64,000 bases of DNA from Faecalibacterium prausnitzii (GTDB lineage Bacteria > Bacillota > Clostridia > Oscillospirales > Ruminococcaceae): positions 62,001 through 126,000 of the forward strand of contig NZ_PRLD01000005.1 of the NCBI RefSeq assembly GCF_003287405.1. Direction: 5' to 3'. Each line of letters starts with the position of its first letter. Positions within the stretch are counted from its first letter, which is position 1. The notes below the pieces were generated by a model. That model saw only the letters and a list, made by a program, of their open reading frames with translations, was not told where the DNA came from and made no database searches. Below, one piece after another: positions 5,564 to 56,807 of this stretch. A program made the translations under genes and the position numbers.

Positions 5564-5696
5564 GACGATTTGGAATGCCCTCCGCGCTGCTATGGGCATT
5601 TTCAGCGGAAATAGTATTTTGGATTTGTTGCTCAGAAACGCCTGCGGGCGTTTCTGAGCAACTTTTTCATGGGAAGGGGTCGTAAGGCAGACGGCA
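5564..5696. repeat. Family B palindromic element, copy B1 (left half); also serves as eno terminator
   Basis: Begins GACGATTTGGAATG right after eno. End stem ATGCCC (5575-5580) pairs with GGGCAT (5594-5599). Next come TCAGCGGAA and a perfect 16-bp hairpin (5627-5642 with 5647-5662, loop TGCG) followed by five T, which can terminate eno transcription. It ends with the linker motif GGGAAGGGGTCGTAAGGC. The right half seen in other copies is absent. Confidence 0.75.
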
Positions 5697-5712
5697 GCTG
5701 CGAATAATTTCA

Positions 5713-5854
5713 GCGGGCTCGCCCTCTCCGTCACCTACGGTGACACCTCTCCCAAAGGGAGAGGCCTTGGCAAAGAGATGAAGTTTGCGTGGACTGCCAA
5801 GGGCTCCCACTTTGGGGGAGCTGGCATCGCGCAGCGATGACTGAGAGGGCGAGG
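5713..5854. repeat. Family A palindromic repeat, copy A1
   Basis: About 140 bp bounded by inverted GGGCTCGCCCTCTC / GAGAGGGCGAG ends. Inner blocks are CCTCTCCCAAAGGGAGAGG, GCCTTGGCAAAGAGATGAAG and a right-hand hairpin CATCGC-GCA-GCGATG. Near-identical blocks recur at 12283 and, inverted, at 63451. No open reading frame looks real within it. Confidence 0.85.
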
Positions 5855-5990
5855 ATGCTGACCTTGTGCAATAGAAACGATTTGAATTGATTCTTCCCAA
5901 TATTTACCACCATGGTATTTGCAATCCTGCGGCGGGCTGGTTCGTATATAAGGCAGACCGACACCCGACAGCAGCCGGGACGGAATGATA

Positions 5991-6032
5991 GCAATTCAAC
6001 TTTTTAATGCAACGGCAACAGCGTTGAATTGC
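5991..6032. repeat. Inverted repeat upstream of the micro-peptide genes
   Basis: Perfect 10-bp inverted repeat GCAATTCAAC (5991-6000) and GTTGAATTGC (6023-6032), about 70 bp before the first small ORF. It could be an operator or a leader-RNA hairpin. No convincing -35/-10 pair was found in this gap. Confidence 0.45.
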
Positions 6033-6104
6033 ATGGCGCAAATATGCTGTTTGAATGTTGCACTGATTTCTTGACTTGCGAAAAACGAAAGGAGCAAACC
6101 TTCC

Positions 6105-6197
6105 ATGTTTCAAGGCCTTGGGCCGCTGCTCAACCTTTTGGGCGGCGGCAGCTTGACTAAGCTGCTTCTGTTTTTGCTAAAGGGGCTGTTCGGCTGA
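6105..6197 (+). CDS. 30-residue hydrophobic micro-peptide
   Basis: ATG preceded by GAAAGGAG at good spacing. It encodes 30 residues, mostly Leu, Gly and Phe, with two Lys and one polar GGGSLTK turn (MFQGLGPLLNLLGGG at the start). The composition suggests a single membrane-inserting helix pair, as in type I toxins, membrane micro-proteins or leaderless bacteriocins, but no family is recognised. It is followed 26 bp later by a second small ORF and then a terminator, so the two look like a real two-gene transcript. It sits between repeats A1 and A2. Confidence 0.5.
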   Translation: MFQGLGPLLNLLGGGSLTKLLLFLLKGLFG

Positions 6198-6223
6198 AAC
6201 GGACGGTCTGAAAGGAGAATACC

Positions 6224-6304
6224 ATGCTGATCGTATTGGAGCATCTGCTGGGTCGGATCAATCTGCCCGGTATGTGGTGGATCATCGCAGAGCGCTGGCT
6301 GTGA
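6224..6304 (+). CDS. 26-residue hydrophobic/Trp-rich micro-peptide
   Basis: ATG with AAAGGAG 7 nt upstream. It encodes 26 residues rich in Leu, Ile and Trp (ends MWWIIAERWL) with a few charged residues, so amphipathic. It is second in a tandem with the 30-residue ORF and directly followed by an intrinsic terminator. No known family was recognised. The independent ribosome sites and shared terminator are the reason for calling it a gene. Confidence 0.48.
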   Translation: MLIVLEHLLGRINLPGMWWIIAERWL

Positions 6305-6320
6305 GGTGACACCCCGCAAA

Positions 6321-6351
6321 GCCGCTGCACTTTTTGTGCGGCGGCTTTTTT
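6321..6351 (+). terminator. Terminator of the micro-peptide unit
   Basis: Stem 6321-6330 with 6336-6345 (one G-U pair), then six T. Confidence 0.8.
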
Positions 6352-6371
6352 GCTGCGCGGAACGATTTCAC

Positions 6372-6546
6372 TAGGCTCGCCCTCTCCGTCAGTTCGCTTC
6401 GCTCACTGCCACCTCTCCCAAAGGGAGAGGCCTTGGCATGGCGGAAAAGTTTCCGGTCAAACTGCAAAGTTCGTGGTTTCGCCAGAGGCTCTCCCTTTGG
6501 GAGAGCTGGCAAATCCGCAGGATTTGACTGAGAGGGCGAGCCCGCT
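6372..6546. repeat. Family A palindromic repeat, copy A2
   Basis: Same ends as A1 (GGCTCGCCCTCTCCGTCA and TGACTGAGAGGGCGAGCC). The centre differs, and the right-hand hairpin is AAATCC-GCA-GGATTT instead of CATCGC-GCA-GCGATG, so the stem sequence has changed while staying self-complementary. Confidence 0.85.
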
Positions 6547-6754: not shown

Positions 6755-8860
6755 ATGGAAACAGGCGAGACGATAAAAAAAGGACTTCTGCGGCTGGAAC
6801 GCTATGCACAGAATATACCGGGTGGTTTTCACTGCTGCGCAGAGGACCCGGAAAACGGCTATCCGTTTGCTTATATCAGCGACCGTTTTCTGGAGATACT
6901 GGGCTGGGAGCGGGCAGAATTTGCGGCAAGGTTCGATAACCGCTATACAGCGCTGGTACACCCGGATGATCTGGCGGACGGGCTGCGCTACCGGAACGCA
7001 GAAAACAGCGCGACTTACGCACAGGAGGGCGACAACATCTTCCGGATGTTGGGCAAAAACGGCTACCGCTGGGTCTCCAGTGCTGCCAACCGGGTGGAAT
7101 GGCGCGGCGATGGCTATATCGTGGGCACTATCACGGATATCACCCCCTATATGGAGCTGCGGGAAAAGCTGGAACAGCAGAACCGCACCCAGCGGGAAGC
7201 ACTGGAAACCGCCAACCGCAACCTGCTGCGGATGATGCAGCAGATGGAGGAGCAAAAGACTCAGTTTGCCCAGACCACCGCTCGGAATATGGAAAAAGAA
7301 GAGCGCTACCGGCAGCGGCTGAACCATGACGCTTTGACCGGCACCTACAACCGCCGCTATTACGAGGATGTGGTGCGCAATAACATCGGCCCGGCGGGCA
7401 TTGCCCTGATGGATATCGACGATTTCAAGATCTGCAACGATACCTACGGCCACCACGCCGGAGATCTGGCACTGGAAACCGTTGCAAAGGCCATCCGCAG
7501 CTGTATCCGGGAGACGGATCTGCTGATCCGCTACGGCGGCGATGAATTTTTGCTGGTGCTGTCCGGCATCCCGGCAGATTACCTCAAGACAAAGCTGGAG
7601 CAGATCCGCGATGCCGTGCAAAAGGCTGTGGTGCCGGGCTACCCTCACTTCCGGCTTTCGCTGAGCATCGGCGGCGCGATGCAGACCCTTGCCGACCCCA
7701 TGGAGAATGTGGTGCGCCGGGCAGACCTTTTGATGTATCAGGCCAAGAACCACAAGGACGCGGTGGCGGTGGACACACAGGACAGCCGGTTGGCGGCTCA
7801 GGAGCAAGTCTTGGAGGAAAAGCCCGTCATCCTGCTGGTGGACGATGCCATGATGAACCGCATGATGCTGACCGGCATTCTGGGCGGGGACTACCGTATT
7901 CTGGAAGCCGGGAACGGCAAACAGTGTCTGGAGCTGCTGCGGGAAAAGGCGGGGCAGATCTCGCTGGTGCTGCTGGATATCAATATGCCGGTCATGGACG
8001 GCTTTGAGGTGCTGCGCACCATGAACACCAACCACACCATCGAGGATGTGCCGGTGATCATGATCTCCAGCGACGACTCGGAAGAAGCCATCCGCAAGGC
8101 GTATGAGCTGGGCGCAAGCGATTACGTTAGCCGCCCCTTTGACGCCAAGATCGTCTACCGCCGGGTGGTCAACACCATCAAGCTGTATGCCAAGCAGCGG
8201 CGGCTGGTGCAGATGGTGTCCGACCAGATCCGCGCCCGCGAAAAGAACACCGATGTGCTGGTAGGCGTGCTGAGCCAGATCGTGGAGTTCCGCAACGGCG
8301 AGTCCGGCTCTCATGTGCGGCACATCCGCGTCATCACCGAGACGCTGCTGCACCGGCTGATGGAGCTGACCAGCCGCTACGACCTGACCCCGGAGCAGCA
8401 GGATGATATCCCGCTTGCGTCGGCGCTGCACGATATTGGCAAAATAGGCATTGACGAAGCCATCCTGAATAAGCCCGGCAAGCTGACCGCAGAGGAATTT
8501 GCGGTGATCAAGACCCACAGTATGCTGGGCGCAGAGATGCTGCAAAAGACCGAAAGCTTTGCAGACCAGCCGCTTTTGCAGACTGCCTACGAGATCGCCC
8601 GCTGGCACCACGAGCGCTGGGACGGCAAGGGCTACCCGGACGGGCTGAAAGGGGACGATATCCCCATCAGTGCGCAGCTGGTCTCCATGGCGGATGTGTA
8701 CGATGCGCTGACCAGCGAGCGGTGCTACAAAAAGGCGTTCCCGCACGAGACTGCTGTCCAGATGATCACAAACGGCGCGTGCGGGGCGTTCAACCCGCTG
8801 CTGATCCAGTGCCTGCTGGATGTGCAGGGGGAACTGAAGCAGGATATTTTACAATGGTAA
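6755..8860 (+). CDS. PAS-GGDEF-receiver-HD-GYP protein, predicted bifunctional c-di-GMP enzyme
   Basis: 701 residues, no membrane segment. Order: PAS (~20-130), coiled linker (~135-190), GGDEF diguanylate cyclase (~190-340) with intact GGDEF at 261-265 and an I-site RETD at 252-255, receiver domain (~356-475) with phospho-acceptor Asp in LLDINMPVMDG (~408), and HD-GYP phosphodiesterase (~495-690) with HD at 559-560 and GYP at 626-628 in HHERWDGKGYP. It should make and degrade cyclic di-GMP under control of phosphorylation and a PAS signal. The receiver's usual Lys before Pro is Arg (SRPFD, 460). The next gene follows after 17 bp, so a shared transcript with the sensor genes is likely. Confidence 0.92.
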   Translation: METGETIKKGLLRLERYAQNIPGGFHCCAEDPENGYPFAYISDRFLEILGWERAEFAARFDNRYTALVHPDDLADGLRYRNAENSATYAQEGDNIFRMLGKNGYRWVSSAANRVEWRGDGYIVGTITDITPYMELREKLEQQNRTQREALETANRNLLRMMQQMEEQKTQFAQTTARNMEKEERYRQRLNHDALTGTYNRRYYEDVVRNNIGPAGIALMDIDDFKICNDTYGHHAGDLALETVAKAIRSCIRETDLLIRYGGDEFLLVLSGIPADYLKTKLEQIRDAVQKAVVPGYPHFRLSLSIGGAMQTLADPMENVVRRADLLMYQAKNHKDAVAVDTQDSRLAAQEQVLEEKPVILLVDDAMMNRMMLTGILGGDYRILEAGNGKQCLELLREKAGQISLVLLDINMPVMDGFEVLRTMNTNHTIEDVPVIMISSDDSEEAIRKAYELGASDYVSRPFDAKIVYRRVVNTIKLYAKQRRLVQMVSDQIRAREKNTDVLVGVLSQIVEFRNGESGSHVRHIRVITETLLHRLMELTSRYDLTPEQQDDIPLASALHDIGKIGIDEAILNKPGKLTAEEFAVIKTHSMLGAEMLQKTESFADQPLLQTAYEIARWHHERWDGKGYPDGLKGDDIPISAQLVSMADVYDALTSERCYKKAFPHETAVQMITNGACGAFNPLLIQCLLDVQGELKQDILQW

Positions 8861-17891: not shown

Positions 17892-17932
17892 AGCAAAACG
17901 CCCCGTACCGGTTTCCCGGTACGGGGCGTTTG
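17892..17932 (-). terminator. Hairpin between kduI and kduD
   Basis: Near-perfect GC-rich stem built on CGCCCCGTACCG and its complement around a short loop, with GTTTT following on the minus strand. It probably gives partial termination before kduD. Confidence 0.6.
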
Positions 17933-27646: not shown

Positions 27647-28481
27647 GACCCCCTTGACGGCACAGCCGGGCAGCGCGCCCGCGCCGGAGCAGAAACCGGC
27701 AGAAAAACGACCCGCTGAAAAGCCCTTGCGCCGGGTGGGCAGCCTGACCTTGGGCGCGTGTCTCATTGCGGCGGGCGTGTTCTTTCTGCTGTATTTCTTT
27801 GTGCCGGGCTTTGATGTGCAGTTGACCCTGAAAATTGCCCCGGCGGTGGCGCTGGTGCTGCTGGGGTGCGAGGTGCTGTTTTTTGCCGCCCGCCCCGGCC
27901 GCTGGAAGTACGATTTTGTGTCCGTGCTGGTCTGTCTGGTGCTGATGGCGGGCTGCTTTTGCATGGCAATGCTGCCCATGCTATGGGACGAGTTGAGCGG
28001 CGAAAATCAGCAGACGATGAACCGTCTGAGCGCACAGGCCATTGACGAACTGTACTCCGCCTGCAAGCAAGACGCGCAGGACATCGCCATCCAGAACATC
28101 AGCGGCTGGCTGTACCTGAGCGGCCCGCAGGTCGAGACGTTGCAGCAGGCCGCCGCCCTGCCCGCCGGGGATACCTGCCTGACCTTGACTGTGGAGCTGT
28201 TTGGCCCCTACGACAGCGCCGCCGCCTTTGCCCGGGACTGCTACACCCTGACCGCACTGGCAAAGCAGTGCACCGTGCCGCCGGAAAAGCTGCACTTTAC
28301 ATGGGATGCCCGCAGCCCGGCAGAAAGCAGCCTGAACACCGGCAGTCTGCTGTACACCGAGGACTATTCGCTGGACCTGAGCGGCGCTGTGCAGCTGGAC
28401 TGGACAGTGCAGCAGATGGAGCAGCAGACCGAGACCGAGTATCTGCTGGACGCAGAAAATATCCCCGATGGGGAAGAATGA
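27630..28481 (+). CDS. Hypothetical membrane protein of the ECF operon
   Basis: 283 residues. Hydrophilic N-tail with Ala/Pro/Glu, then three helices (~38-58, ~66-83, ~95-112) and a ~165-residue probably extracellular domain with no recognised family. It overlaps the previous gene by 17 bp. Start at the second ATG (27630), which has GGAGG 6 nt upstream. Last gene of the operon; the stop codon abuts a perfect palindromic terminator. Confidence 0.65.
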   Translation: MTEQNKTPLTAQPGSAPAPEQKPAEKRPAEKPLRRVGSLTLGACLIAAGVFFLLYFFVPGFDVQLTLKIAPAVALVLLGCEVLFFAARPGRWKYDFVSVLVCLVLMAGCFCMAMLPMLWDELSGENQQTMNRLSAQAIDELYSACKQDAQDIAIQNISGWLYLSGPQVETLQQAAALPAGDTCLTLTVELFGPYDSAAAFARDCYTLTALAKQCTVPPEKLHFTWDARSPAESSLNTGSLLYTEDYSLDLSGAVQLDWTVQQMEQQTETEYLLDAENIPDGEE

Positions 28482-28516
28482 AAAATACCGCCGCACAGCT
28501 GTGCGGCGGTATTTTT
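28481..28516. terminator. Bidirectional terminator, perfect 36-bp palindrome
   Basis: AAAAATACCGCCGCACAG and its exact reverse complement with no spacer, giving A/T runs on both sides. It ends the ECF operon on the plus strand and can back up the tRNA terminator on the minus strand. Confidence 0.88.
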
Positions 28517-30111: not shown

Positions 30112-30357
30112 AAACCATTGAAATGCCCTCCGCTTACGCTCTGGGCATAAATAGCGGAAAATTTATTTTTATTTCGCGTTTGTCGCGGCCTGCGGGCCGC
30201 TCCAAACGCATTTTCACAAAAGGGGCTTAGAAAACCGGCGCCCTCCACTCGTGAAAAAGAGCATCTGAAAAGCCCGCAGGCTTTTCAGATGCTCAAATAA
30301 AAAATCCAATTCCGCTAAAAATATCCAGAGCGCAGCGGAGGATATTCCAAATCGTCC
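30112..30357. repeat. Family B palindromic element, copy B2 (both ends present)
   Basis: Left end stem ATGCCC/GGGCAT (30123-30128, 30143-30148); hairpin 30176-30190 with 30195-30209, loop TGCG; linker with TTTTCAC...GTGAAAA; hairpin 30259-30274 with 30279-30294 (16 bp, loop CGCA); right end stem ATATCC/GGATAT (30321-30326, 30340-30345). It fills the gap between the rhodanese and the 30419 gene. Confidence 0.82.
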
Positions 30358-34510: not shown

Positions 34511-34739
34511 GGAGGGAACGAAGAACCGGGAGGGGCTGTAAAGGCAAACGGCATCGCAAGATTTTTCCGCAGCGCCGCACTTCCGAAGGAAGCGGCGCTG
34601 CAAATGTCGCTTACCGCTGCGACCCTTCCCGTGAAAATGGACTCCCGGAGCGTCCGCAGACGCTCCGGGAGTCCGAAATCATAGATATTCTTTCCGCTGA
34701 ACTTGCGCAGAGCGAAGCGGAGCGCAATTAAAATCGTCT
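34511..34739. repeat. Family B palindromic element, copy B3 (right portion and linker)
   Basis: Contains the linker GGGGCTGTAAAGGC, a bulged hairpin (GCAGCGCCGC...), a perfect 16-bp hairpin (34639-34654 with 34659-34674, loop CGCA), TTCCGCTGA, and end stem TTGCGC/GCGCAA (34703-34708, 34722-34727). It abuts the cysS -35 on one side and pflA on the other and could terminate pflA. Confidence 0.72.
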
Positions 34740-38316: not shown

Positions 38317-38634
38317 GTGAAGAAACGCCTGCGGGCGTTTCTGAATCTGGCTTTCACAGAGGAGAGCGCAGGGAAAAGGACAAATATGCCATCTGCCTTT
38401 ACGACCCCACCCGTGAAAAGGCAGTTCGGGAAAATCCGCAGATTTTCCCGAACTGCAAATTATAAAATATTCTTTCCGCTGAATATGCCCAGAGCGCAAC
38501 GACGACGACCGCCGCCAGCGGCGGAAACAGGGAGGAGTTGTTGGGGCAGCGGCCAGCAAGACGCGAGTGCCGCCCAAGGCACGATGCGGATGCTGGGTGC
38601 CGCAACCCGATAAGCGGAGGGCATTCAAAATCAT
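38317..38634. repeat. Family B palindromic element, copy B4, carrying the 117-bp insert
   Basis: Short hairpin AGAAACGCC-TGCG-GGCGTTTCT (38321-38342), linker CCTTTACGACCCCACCCGTGAAAA, perfect 16-bp hairpin (38421-38436 with 38441-38456, loop CGCA), TTCCGCTGA, then end stem ATGCCC (38485-38490) pairing with GGGCAT (38619-38624) across a 117-bp loop insert (38496-38612) that also occurs in copy B5. Confidence 0.78.
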
Positions 38635-38637
38635 TTT

Positions 38638-48896: not shown

Positions 48897-48920
48897 CCGG
48901 GTCTTGTGCGCCCCTTTGTG

Positions 48921-49088
48921 TTAAGGTGTATCTGAAAACAAAGAAAATGACGAATATTTCGCAAACACAAGCGGGATTTAAGGCAAATAGCCGCAGGAAT
49001 CCTTTGTGGATTTCAAGGCTATTTAACGCAAAATCCAGCTGTGCTTGTAGAAATAGACTAAATTTTCGACTTTTCAGATACACCCTAA
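48921..49088. mobile_element. 168-bp MITE-like element with 18-bp terminal inverted repeats
   Basis: Ends TTAAGGTGTATCTGAAAA (48921-48938) and TTTTCAGATACACCCTAA (49071-49088) are inverted copies with one mismatch. The interior can fold back (GGCAAATAGCC with GGCTATTT). It encodes no protein. It looks like a small non-autonomous transposon; no parent transposase is in the window. Confidence 0.7.
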
Positions 49089-49108
49089 GCAGCGGGGGAG
49101 GTGCAGGC

Positions 49109-51436: not shown

Positions 51437-51812
51437 GACGATTTGGAATGCGCTCCGCGATGCTCTGCGCATCAATAGCGGAATTTTATTTTTATTTGTA
51501 AATCGGGAAAATCTGCGGATTTTCCCGATTTACTTTTTCACGGGGAGGGACGCAGCGGCTGACAGGTAGTTTCCCTTTACGACCCCTCCTGTGAAAATGG
51601 GATAGCGGAACGCCCGCAGGCGTTCCGCTATCCCGAAATTTAAAATAATTTTTCCGCTGAAAATGGCTAGAGTGCAACGACGACGACCGCCGCCAGCGGC
51701 GGAAACAGGGAGGAGTTGTTGGGGCAGCGGCCAGCAAGACGCGAGTGCCGCCCAAGGCACGATGCGGATGCTGGGTGCCGCAACCCGATAGCGGAAGCCA
51801 TTTCAAATCGTC
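51437..51812. repeat. Family B palindromic element, copy B5 (complete, with 117-bp insert)
   Basis: Both ends GACGATTT/AAATCGTC. Left end stem ATGCGC/GCGCAT (51448-51453, 51467-51472); hairpin 51498-51513 with 51518-51533 (16 bp, loop TGCG); linker bounded by TTTTCACGGGG and CCTGTGAAAA; hairpin 51599-51614 with 51619-51634 (16 bp, loop CGCA); right end stem ATGGCT/AGCCAT (51663-51668, 51796-51801) interrupted by the insert 51674-51790. The best template for the family. Confidence 0.85.
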
Positions 51813-56635: not shown

Positions 56636-56807
56636 AATGGAGCCCCGGAACGCCAGCGGCGTTCCGGGGCTCTGAAATCATTTTCACGAGAGGGGCTGTA
56701 TGTGAAAAAATGGATTGGGAAACTCTGTAGAGTTTCCCAATCCATAAATTTAAAATAATTCTTCCGCTGAAGATGCGCAGAGCAACGCGGAGCGCATAAC
56801 AAATCTT
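56636..56807. repeat. Family B palindromic element, copy B6
   Basis: Hairpin 56640-56654 with 56658-56672 (15 bp, 3-nt loop AGC), linker TTTTCACGAGAGGGG, hairpin 56710-56725 with 56730-56745 (16 bp, loop TGTA), TTCCGCTGA, right end stem ATGCGC/GCGCAT (56773-56778, 56792-56797). It lies between the GH2 and flavoprotein genes; the left end is missing. Confidence 0.8.

Follow-up and report, generated by a model that had tools for sequence, protein, structure and literature searches.

A Faecalibacterium Family of Intergenic Hairpin Repeats with Variable Stems of Near Constant Length, Probably REPIN-like in Arrangement and Behavior

Introduction

REPINs and REP dimers are described, in passages of two papers (PMC3116915, PMC3733652), as high copy intergenic repeats that occur as inverted doublets and as solo units, and clover or long-hairpin folds are discussed there. 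The passage on dimers in PMC3733652 reports that REP heterodimers with different stems are preferred and gives no obvious explanation; the legend of Fig. S11 of PMC3116915 proposes that the clover, not the more stable long hairpin, is the fold that a transposase can use. The RHE repeats of sponge mitochondria are also dispersed intergenic hairpin repeats, sometimes double hairpins, and in the part of PMC2800124 that describes them they combine conserved stems with variable loops.

A 64,000-nt stretch of Faecalibacterium prausnitzii DNA (termed the window) contains seven perfect hairpins with 16-bp arms and a 4-nt loop (termed 16-4-16) that are members of one Faecalibacterium repeat family. As with REPINs, there are many copies, these are intergenic, and both inverted doublets and solo units are present, for which clover or long-hairpin folds can be considered. 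In contrast to RHE, a conserved loop goes with variable stems. The family resembles MITEs in being short and non-autonomous and in displaying terminal inverted repeats and presence/absence polymorphism; unlike MITEs, it appears to exchange internal cassettes, and target overlaps at one site are 2 bp or 0. This hairpin family is arranged like a REPIN and probably behaves like one. Among the best-ranked titles of a literature search, mostly outside subscription journals, no description of the family was found, and passages of PMC12306157 and PMC2267715 hold nothing about it.

Elements in the Window

The elements of the family in the window are the following.

5564..5699, + strand: solo unit with an outer hairpin, an AT-rich tract, the 16-4-16 hairpin 5627-5662 (GTTGCTCAGAAACGCC, loop TGCG), then TTTTTCATGGGAAGGGGTCG
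30117..30340, both orientations: convergent pair with hairpins 30175-30210 (+, TC/TC-mismatch class) and 30259-30294 (-, GAGCATCTGAAAAGCC)
34525..34735, - strand: truncated element with hairpin 34639-34674 (GGACTCCCGGAGCGTC)
38317..38635, - strand: element with hairpin 38421-38456 and a short left hairpin near 38321-38342
51437..51812, both orientations: full convergent pair with hairpins 51498-51533 (+) and 51599-51634 (-)
56636..56800, - strand: a 15-3-15 hairpin (56640-56672), then the unit hairpin 56710-56745 (ATGGATTGGGAAACTC, loop TACA in unit orientation)

A first-pass annotation of this DNA had reported seven perfect 16-4-16 hairpins with the loop TGCG, its complement CGCA, or TGTA, as well as shared flanks around them, and both observations are confirmed. 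Its inventory overlooked an imperfect eighth stem (30175-30210) and the short hairpin near 38321-38342. With loops of 3-8 nt and arms no shorter than 10 bp, perfect hairpins number 14 in the window; nine are 16-4-16, and seven of these belong to the family. The perfect 16-4-16 hairpins at 17896-17931 and 28481-28516 are without family flanks, and the latter adjoins a tRNA cluster. A scan of the window with Rfam 15 shows three tRNAs only. On the element every Rfam 15 match is far under its gathering score, and the reading as a known RNA family was rejected.

Paired elements have variable terminal inverted repeats (GACGATTT...AAATCGTC) at both ends. The pair at 51437..51812 displays these together with a central stem, TTTTCACGGGGAGGG...CCCCTCCTGTGAAAA, and an extra repeat at about positions 51671-51790. 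The element at 38317..38635 also has an extra repeat of about 115 nt within the loop of its outer hairpin. This ~115-nt repeat (window 51671-51790 and 38500-38620; query 235-351) lies inside the outer hairpin loop of some units, and other sites of the genome of the window, as well as unannotated faecal phage records, have matches confined approximately to it. Window positions 48912-49090 contain another, distinct repeat, about 165-175 nt long, with 91-99% identical copies in the genomes termed G013, G017, G029 and G030.

The presence of elements varies between sister species. The sites of 38317..38635 and 51437..51812 are examples: the former is empty in three sister genomes, and at the latter the element is present in G017, inverted in G029 and absent from G013. 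The inverted G029 copy (locus L083, hairpins at 8695 and 8888) has the same flanks as the copies in G017 and in the genome of the window. The unit 5564..5699 has an orthologue in three sister genomes, with the stem replaced in one (G017). The pair 30117..30340 is found as the same pair in G017, and G013 and G029 are without it. At the site of the truncated element 34525..34735, G017 and G030 have full pairs, and G013 and G029 each have a solo hairpin of smaller size. Sites orthologous to 56636..56800 in other species have different hairpins or none. One further orthologous site (L087:19135, L103:10659, L107:3319, L141:19342) has a solo hairpin, GCAGTTCCGAAACGCC, whose loop is CTTG, TATG or CATG depending on the genome and which has a single stem mismatch in three of the four.

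Unit Structure and Stem Geometry

Toward the T-run, a unit consists of GGACGATTTGAA, an outer 6-bp hairpin, CAGCGGAA, about 16 nt of AT-rich sequence, the 16-bp stem with loop TGCG, TTTTCAC, and GGGAGGGGTCGTAAAGG; GCGGAA sits between the outer hairpin and the AT-rich tract. In a lax scan the outer stem is perfect in its main register in 88/153 units, as ATGCGC (33), ATGCCC (24), ATGGCC (15), ATGGCT (8) and six rarer forms (8). The forms differ, and therefore the outer stem too varies on both sides.

Two sets of units were used. The first, 49 units from the genome of the window, was chosen by a pattern requiring the loop T[GA][CT][GA] and at most six mismatches, so that its loop and pairing statistics are partly by construction. 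The second consists of 153 signature units from eight genomes, selected from 220 candidates by at least two of three signature features and at most four mismatches, with no demand on the loop. Pairing counts are conditional on detection at these limits (six or four mismatches), which misses badly decayed copies.

The two arms covary. In the 49 units, 98.1% of 781 pair cells are paired, six of them as G-U, and there are 240 two-sided changes versus 63.5 in shuffled data, with 15 of the 16 pairs changed on both sides. The first-pass annotation's strict geometry holds as a rule and not as an absolute 16-4: a scan of fetched loci of the same genome (arms 8-25, loops 3-8) gave 50 matches, of which 38 are 16-4 (33 perfect and five with one mismatch), two are 17-4 and the rest are shorter or non-family. 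Two other genomes supplied 40 units from convergent pairs; 23 of these have a best arm of 16, and for the remainder it ranges over 12-18. The longer stems amount to the two of 17 bp in the first scan and one of 18 bp in the paired units.

Stem length is limited near 16 bp, and pairing just beyond the stem is avoided. Pairing at position 17 is possible in 4/137 units, compared with a shuffled mean of 36.1; with one unit per distinct arm the figures are 1/83 and 21.5, and with one unit per cluster 1/30 and 7.4-8.2. A passage of PMC3733652 that quotes earlier work gives the shortest hairpin stem that SbcCD cleaves as 8-16 bp. Cleavage of the SbcCD type may set both the length limit and the need for unlike stems.

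Relationship and Change of Stem Sequences

Perfect stems are present in 114 of the 153 signature units. These all fall among the 137 units outside a stem class with an internal TC/TC mismatch, and they represent 70 distinct arms. The first-pass annotation regarded the arms as completely different. However, the stems at 38421 and 51498 differ at 3/16 pairs, and 38 of the 70 distinct perfect arms (eight genomes) have a neighbor one base pair off. The nearest neighbor of a distinct arm is 1.96 pairs away versus 3.32 for column-shuffled arms, 62 of the 70 link into one network by steps of at most three base pairs, and the eight stem bases near the loop display a small vocabulary. The network and this vocabulary show that the stems are a radiating family and are not unrelated. 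Stem type and the outer 48 nt are unlinked (rho -0.005). For the AT-rich tract (-0.13) and the right tract (-0.14) the link is weak, with values close to the edge of the range from 100 permutations.

Several stems display stepwise change, e.g. GGGTTACAG to GGGTCACAG, and at window position 34657 the series GGACTCCC, GGGCCCCC, GGAACCCC. At one pair the series is C-G in G013, C.A in G017 and T-A in G029. Pairs of arms one step apart differ by 16 transversions and 15 transitions, and some single copies decay through transitions. The stems had also been taken to lack the mismatches that ordinary point mutation leaves. This is not supported: of the 137 stems that are not of the TC/TC class, 23 have 1-4 mismatches (four being the detector limit), and 13/91 orthologous pairs show one-sided changes only. 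The 25 mismatches (in 2160 cells) comprise 10 G.T, 11 A.C and 4 others. There is thus no wobble preference, and therefore no sign of an RNA stem on the T-run strand kept via G-U steps; RNA wobble selection is unsupported by the G.T and A.C counts. As counter-evidence to its own reading the annotation had named either arms that are alike within subfamilies and decay by mismatches, which is what is found, or wide variation in arm length, which is not.

A mutation in one arm could be copied to the other by template switching (quasipalindrome correction), a process described for RNA hairpins in part of PMC8794818, so that stems drift and stay perfect. The nearly equal numbers of one-step transversions and transitions agree with this, since no G-U step is needed, as does the C-G, C.A, T-A series. 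The inverted loop CGCA, a listed signature of the process, is however seen in 0/153 signature units, 1/67 low-signature candidates and 1/40 further units, and extension past 16 bp is rare. The stem class CGCGTTTGTCGCGCTC (window 30175-30210 and others) has kept its internal TC/TC mismatch uncorrected in about 15 units of several genomes, with a perfect version at L244, and one-sided mismatches persist at orthologous sites. Template switching alone also gives no different family stem in one step. As the main explanation it is rather unlikely.

Genomic Context

The units are intergenic: 3/102 classified units lie within called genes. The gene-context counts are based on home-made gene calls, with orthologous loci counted separately. 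Among 134 detected clusters there are 110 single units, 22 convergent pairs and 2 others, and in G029 11/12 neighbors less than 500 nt apart are convergent.

Intrinsic terminators are a hairpin and a T-run near gene ends. If the units were ordinary terminators, with an RNA hairpin, a C(UNCG)G loop and a U-run, the stem sequence would be free and compensatory mutation expected. Several properties are consistent with this. The loop is TGCG in 140/153 signature units and the closing pair C-G in 148/153, with the T-run on the same side; the hairpin 51498-51533 scores as terminator-like; and an outer gene ends toward 60 units, with its stop codon, for 37 of these, 54-85 nt ahead of the stem and near the unit's outer GACGATTT end. 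Where a gap contains an element, it is convergent in 32/84 and divergent in 12/84 cases, versus 138/571 and 133/571 for gaps without. Against this, the 60 genes are out of 99 classified units, of the hairpin pair at 51437 just a single member is terminator-like (shuffles give 0.9), and the T-run is only 4-5 nt long. The six G-U cells in 781 and the mismatches without wobble preference are unlike the expectation for a selected RNA stem. A terminator also needs no outer hairpin, terminal repeats or presence/absence polymorphism. The Faecalibacterium units differ from terminators in having a fixed length, in forming part of a mobile composite, and in the near absence of G-U pairs. That they are simply terminators is possible but doubtful.

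Stem Replacement at Orthologous Sites

Whole stems have been replaced at one genomic site between sister species, as the first-pass annotation had supposed from copies within the window. Outer flanks were aligned between genomes, which gave 91 orthologous pairs that are not independent. Of these, 47 have no two-sided change (34 have identical arms and 13 one-sided changes only), nine have 1-4 two-sided changes and 35 have five or more, a bimodal distribution. Four of the 91, from two loci, lack the family signature (window 29023 and L091/L093/L094; one identical, three one-sided). Counted per locus (n = 33), 17 are the same, three differ by 1-4 pairs and 13 are swapped; this count leaves out four low-signature loci and loci where all stems have at least three mismatches outside the TC/TC class.

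Two examples will be given. At L116:16693, the cleanest swap, the flank and outer hairpin are common to G000, G029, G013, G017 and G030, and the AT tract is common to all five but G013. The stem is GGGGTTCAGAAACGCC in G000 and G029, of the TC/TC class in G013, and GGGTTACAGGAAAGTC or GGGTCACAGGAAAGTC in G017 and G030; these three types are 5-12 pairs apart. G013 and G017 have the inner flank in common as well, which may contain another repeat, and their stems differ at 11 pairs. The second clean swap is at window position 5642, where the G017 stem is seven pairs off that of G000, G013 and G029, and the similarity over the outer 48 nt is 0.94-0.98.

Unlike stems at a single site might also represent separate copies that entered a hotspot independently, the earlier one being lost. 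Elements do vary in presence and orientation at one site, and the outer 48 nt differ as well (match below 0.8) in 9/13 swapped loci, where whole-element replacement or independent insertion is therefore possible. Only two loci reach 0.85; the other 11 have an outer match of 0.50-0.82 in their best pairs, the next-best swaps being L119:11959, where the outer match is 0.82 and the inner match long, and the left unit of 34511, at 0.81. The two clean loci contradict insertion into a hotspot: the clean pairs have the junction and the outer hairpin with its variable loop in common (0.92-0.98) and differ in the stem, and at L116:16693 the inner flank shared by G013 and G017 adds to this. As a general account, independent insertion is improbable.

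Seven stems from swapped loci were compared with the fetched sequence, which covers the genomes in part; four are found identical elsewhere (three of them in the same genome) and three are not. The lone candidate donor compared (in G017) differs directly beside the stem, so that no donor tract was traced. The first-pass annotation had proposed a copying mechanism that regenerates palindromes. The swaps do not require it, because a swapped stem has the geometry of the family and in most cases its loop as well, and 4/7 of those compared have an identical counterpart elsewhere. Selection on a measured structure, its other proposal, fits better, with template switching a possible helper. Thus its observation is real and its interpretation half right.

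Paired Stems and Predicted Folds

The predicted RNA fold of the 51437 pair has a closing stem and three arms (z = -9.1 versus shuffles). In predicted folds of 30 pairs, which include one false pair (L096, a hairpin without the family signature), a closing stem of at least 8 pairs is present in 24, a central stem in 27 and all features in 16. No native element has more than 5 predicted pairs between its two hairpins (n = 30). When the two stems are made identical the predicted clover turns into one long hairpin in 30/30 cases, as is expected of perfect inverted repeats. Covariation of the closing stem between the two AT tracts was not found; the closing stem is without such support because the AT and right tracts are less alike within an element than between elements.

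The two stems of one element differ in ways that are suggestive of an avoidance of similarity. In 33 non-redundant elements (L096 left out), none has stems within 5 pairs of each other versus 4.3 expected (shuffle P = 0.0095, at a threshold picked after seeing the data; P = 0.04 for the mean). At 3 pairs the P value is 0.20. With orthologues left in (32 pairs) the mean gives P = 0.004, and with orthologues collapsed into sets of 23, 30, 27 and 34 pairs it gives 0.28, 0.11, 0.07 and 0.09, where the detector missed known pairs in the 27-pair version and one pair with a poor stem was dropped from the 34-pair version.

Distribution and Mobility

In the genome of the window, 71 pieces match 51437-51812 by BLAST. 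A covariance model (R1) built on the 49 units gives at least 133 family matches there, with 144 candidates scored. Among 31 Faecalibacterium genomes the model matches 12; eight are element-rich, with at least 70-142 matches each, and four others have 1-3. With stricter filters and 18 candidates scored per genome, no match was found in samples of 125 other genera, and 2/247 genomes of the bacterial family matched, both of them Faecalibacterium. An exact-pattern search yielded 22 stretches, all Faecalibacterium (own or near records may be missing), and zero matches in IMG/VR. Plasmids gave no match to the repeat family. There are 28 matching faecal phage records; of the best 10 listed, eight match only in the ~115-nt extra repeat.

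Samples of 100 kb from three genomes with few or no units have 1, 2 and 6 perfect hairpins of at least 12 bp, one being 16-4-16. The corresponding sample of element-rich G017 has 7, also with a single 16-4-16, and the spread of units is thus uneven. In the complete sequence G029:C1, 94 of the 143 units listed (49/66 of those with at least 80 bits) lie in the origin half, with the origin placed by the first gene, dnaA-like by eye; 88/143 are oriented against the presumed fork direction, with gene orientation uncontrolled.

In comparison with G013 at one site, the G029 copy at L109 has a 2-bp overlap (GG) and the G017 copy at L102 has 0. The 38317 site lies in T5, and other sites carry extra bases or have 11-12 or more bases replaced. 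No link between a transposase and the repeat family was found. The Y1 transposase domain PF01797 is present in 6/8 element-rich genomes, and also in G002 (0 units) and G018 (1 unit). It has no match in G017 and G028, which have at least 142 and at least 84 units, and a RAYT was rejected as an obligate carrier on the basis of these two genomes. The genome of the window has a Y1 transposase gene (PF01797) at L051:1474-1980, with one in-frame TAG, which we take to be IS200-like; no family unit lies inside its 3.4-kb locus. In comparisons of window positions 5700-6534 and 18500-57900 with G013, G017 and G029, synteny breaks and local inversions are seen, seemingly at or near elements, which suggests that they come from recombination between element copies.

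With more than 100 short palindromic intergenic copies, the family is of the REP/REPIN type in number and location. Three other defining properties are absent. The GTAG/CGTC tag is found in 0/153 units within 10 nt of the 16-bp stem on either strand, the RAYT association fails in the two genomes named above, and the stems are not conserved; they are highly variable, mostly perfect and 16 bp long (70 arms in 114 perfect stems). The family is therefore not filed as a REPIN.

Proposed Mode of Evolution

On balance the family seems to be a REPIN-like non-autonomous repeat in which copies exchange stems with one another and the stems, selected for structure, drift by one pair at a time. Length and shape are near constant while the letters change, which suggests that shape rather than sequence matters. 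The convergent pair would be the probable functional form: a nested palindrome, a strand of which is predicted to fold as a clover with a central arm, two 16-bp hairpins of unlike sequence and a closing stem formed by GCGGAA and the AT-rich tract. Any machinery that propagates the element, or makes use of it, would read the shape and length of the hairpin, not its letters, and stems could therefore change in two ways. One, which is seen, would be pair by pair on both sides. The other would be exchange of a short hairpin tract with another copy of the family; the replacement itself is seen, and ectopic gene conversion is its probable route, possibly triggered by a stalled or cleaved palindrome. 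The lower bound on length may reflect a need for a full stem. The upper bound of about 16 bp and the lack of similar stems within an element would probably reflect removal of longer perfect palindromes.

A bolder version, offered tentatively, is that in this mobile or structural DNA element a hairpin of measured length is recognized without sequence specificity and that the stems are interchangeable cassettes, with unlike stems locking the clover and so driving exchange and diversification.

Significance

The family makes both the REP heterodimer preference (as given in the passage of PMC3733652) and the clover proposal (Fig. S11 legend of PMC3116915) testable in a natural system. The basis for such a test is that the stems differ in every tested pair, that their length is limited near 16 bp, and that stems are replaced at orthologous sites, including between complete genomes. 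The family could separate selection on structure from templated palindrome repair, and could be a clear example, in a common gut bacterium, of DNA hairpins being recognized by structure alone.
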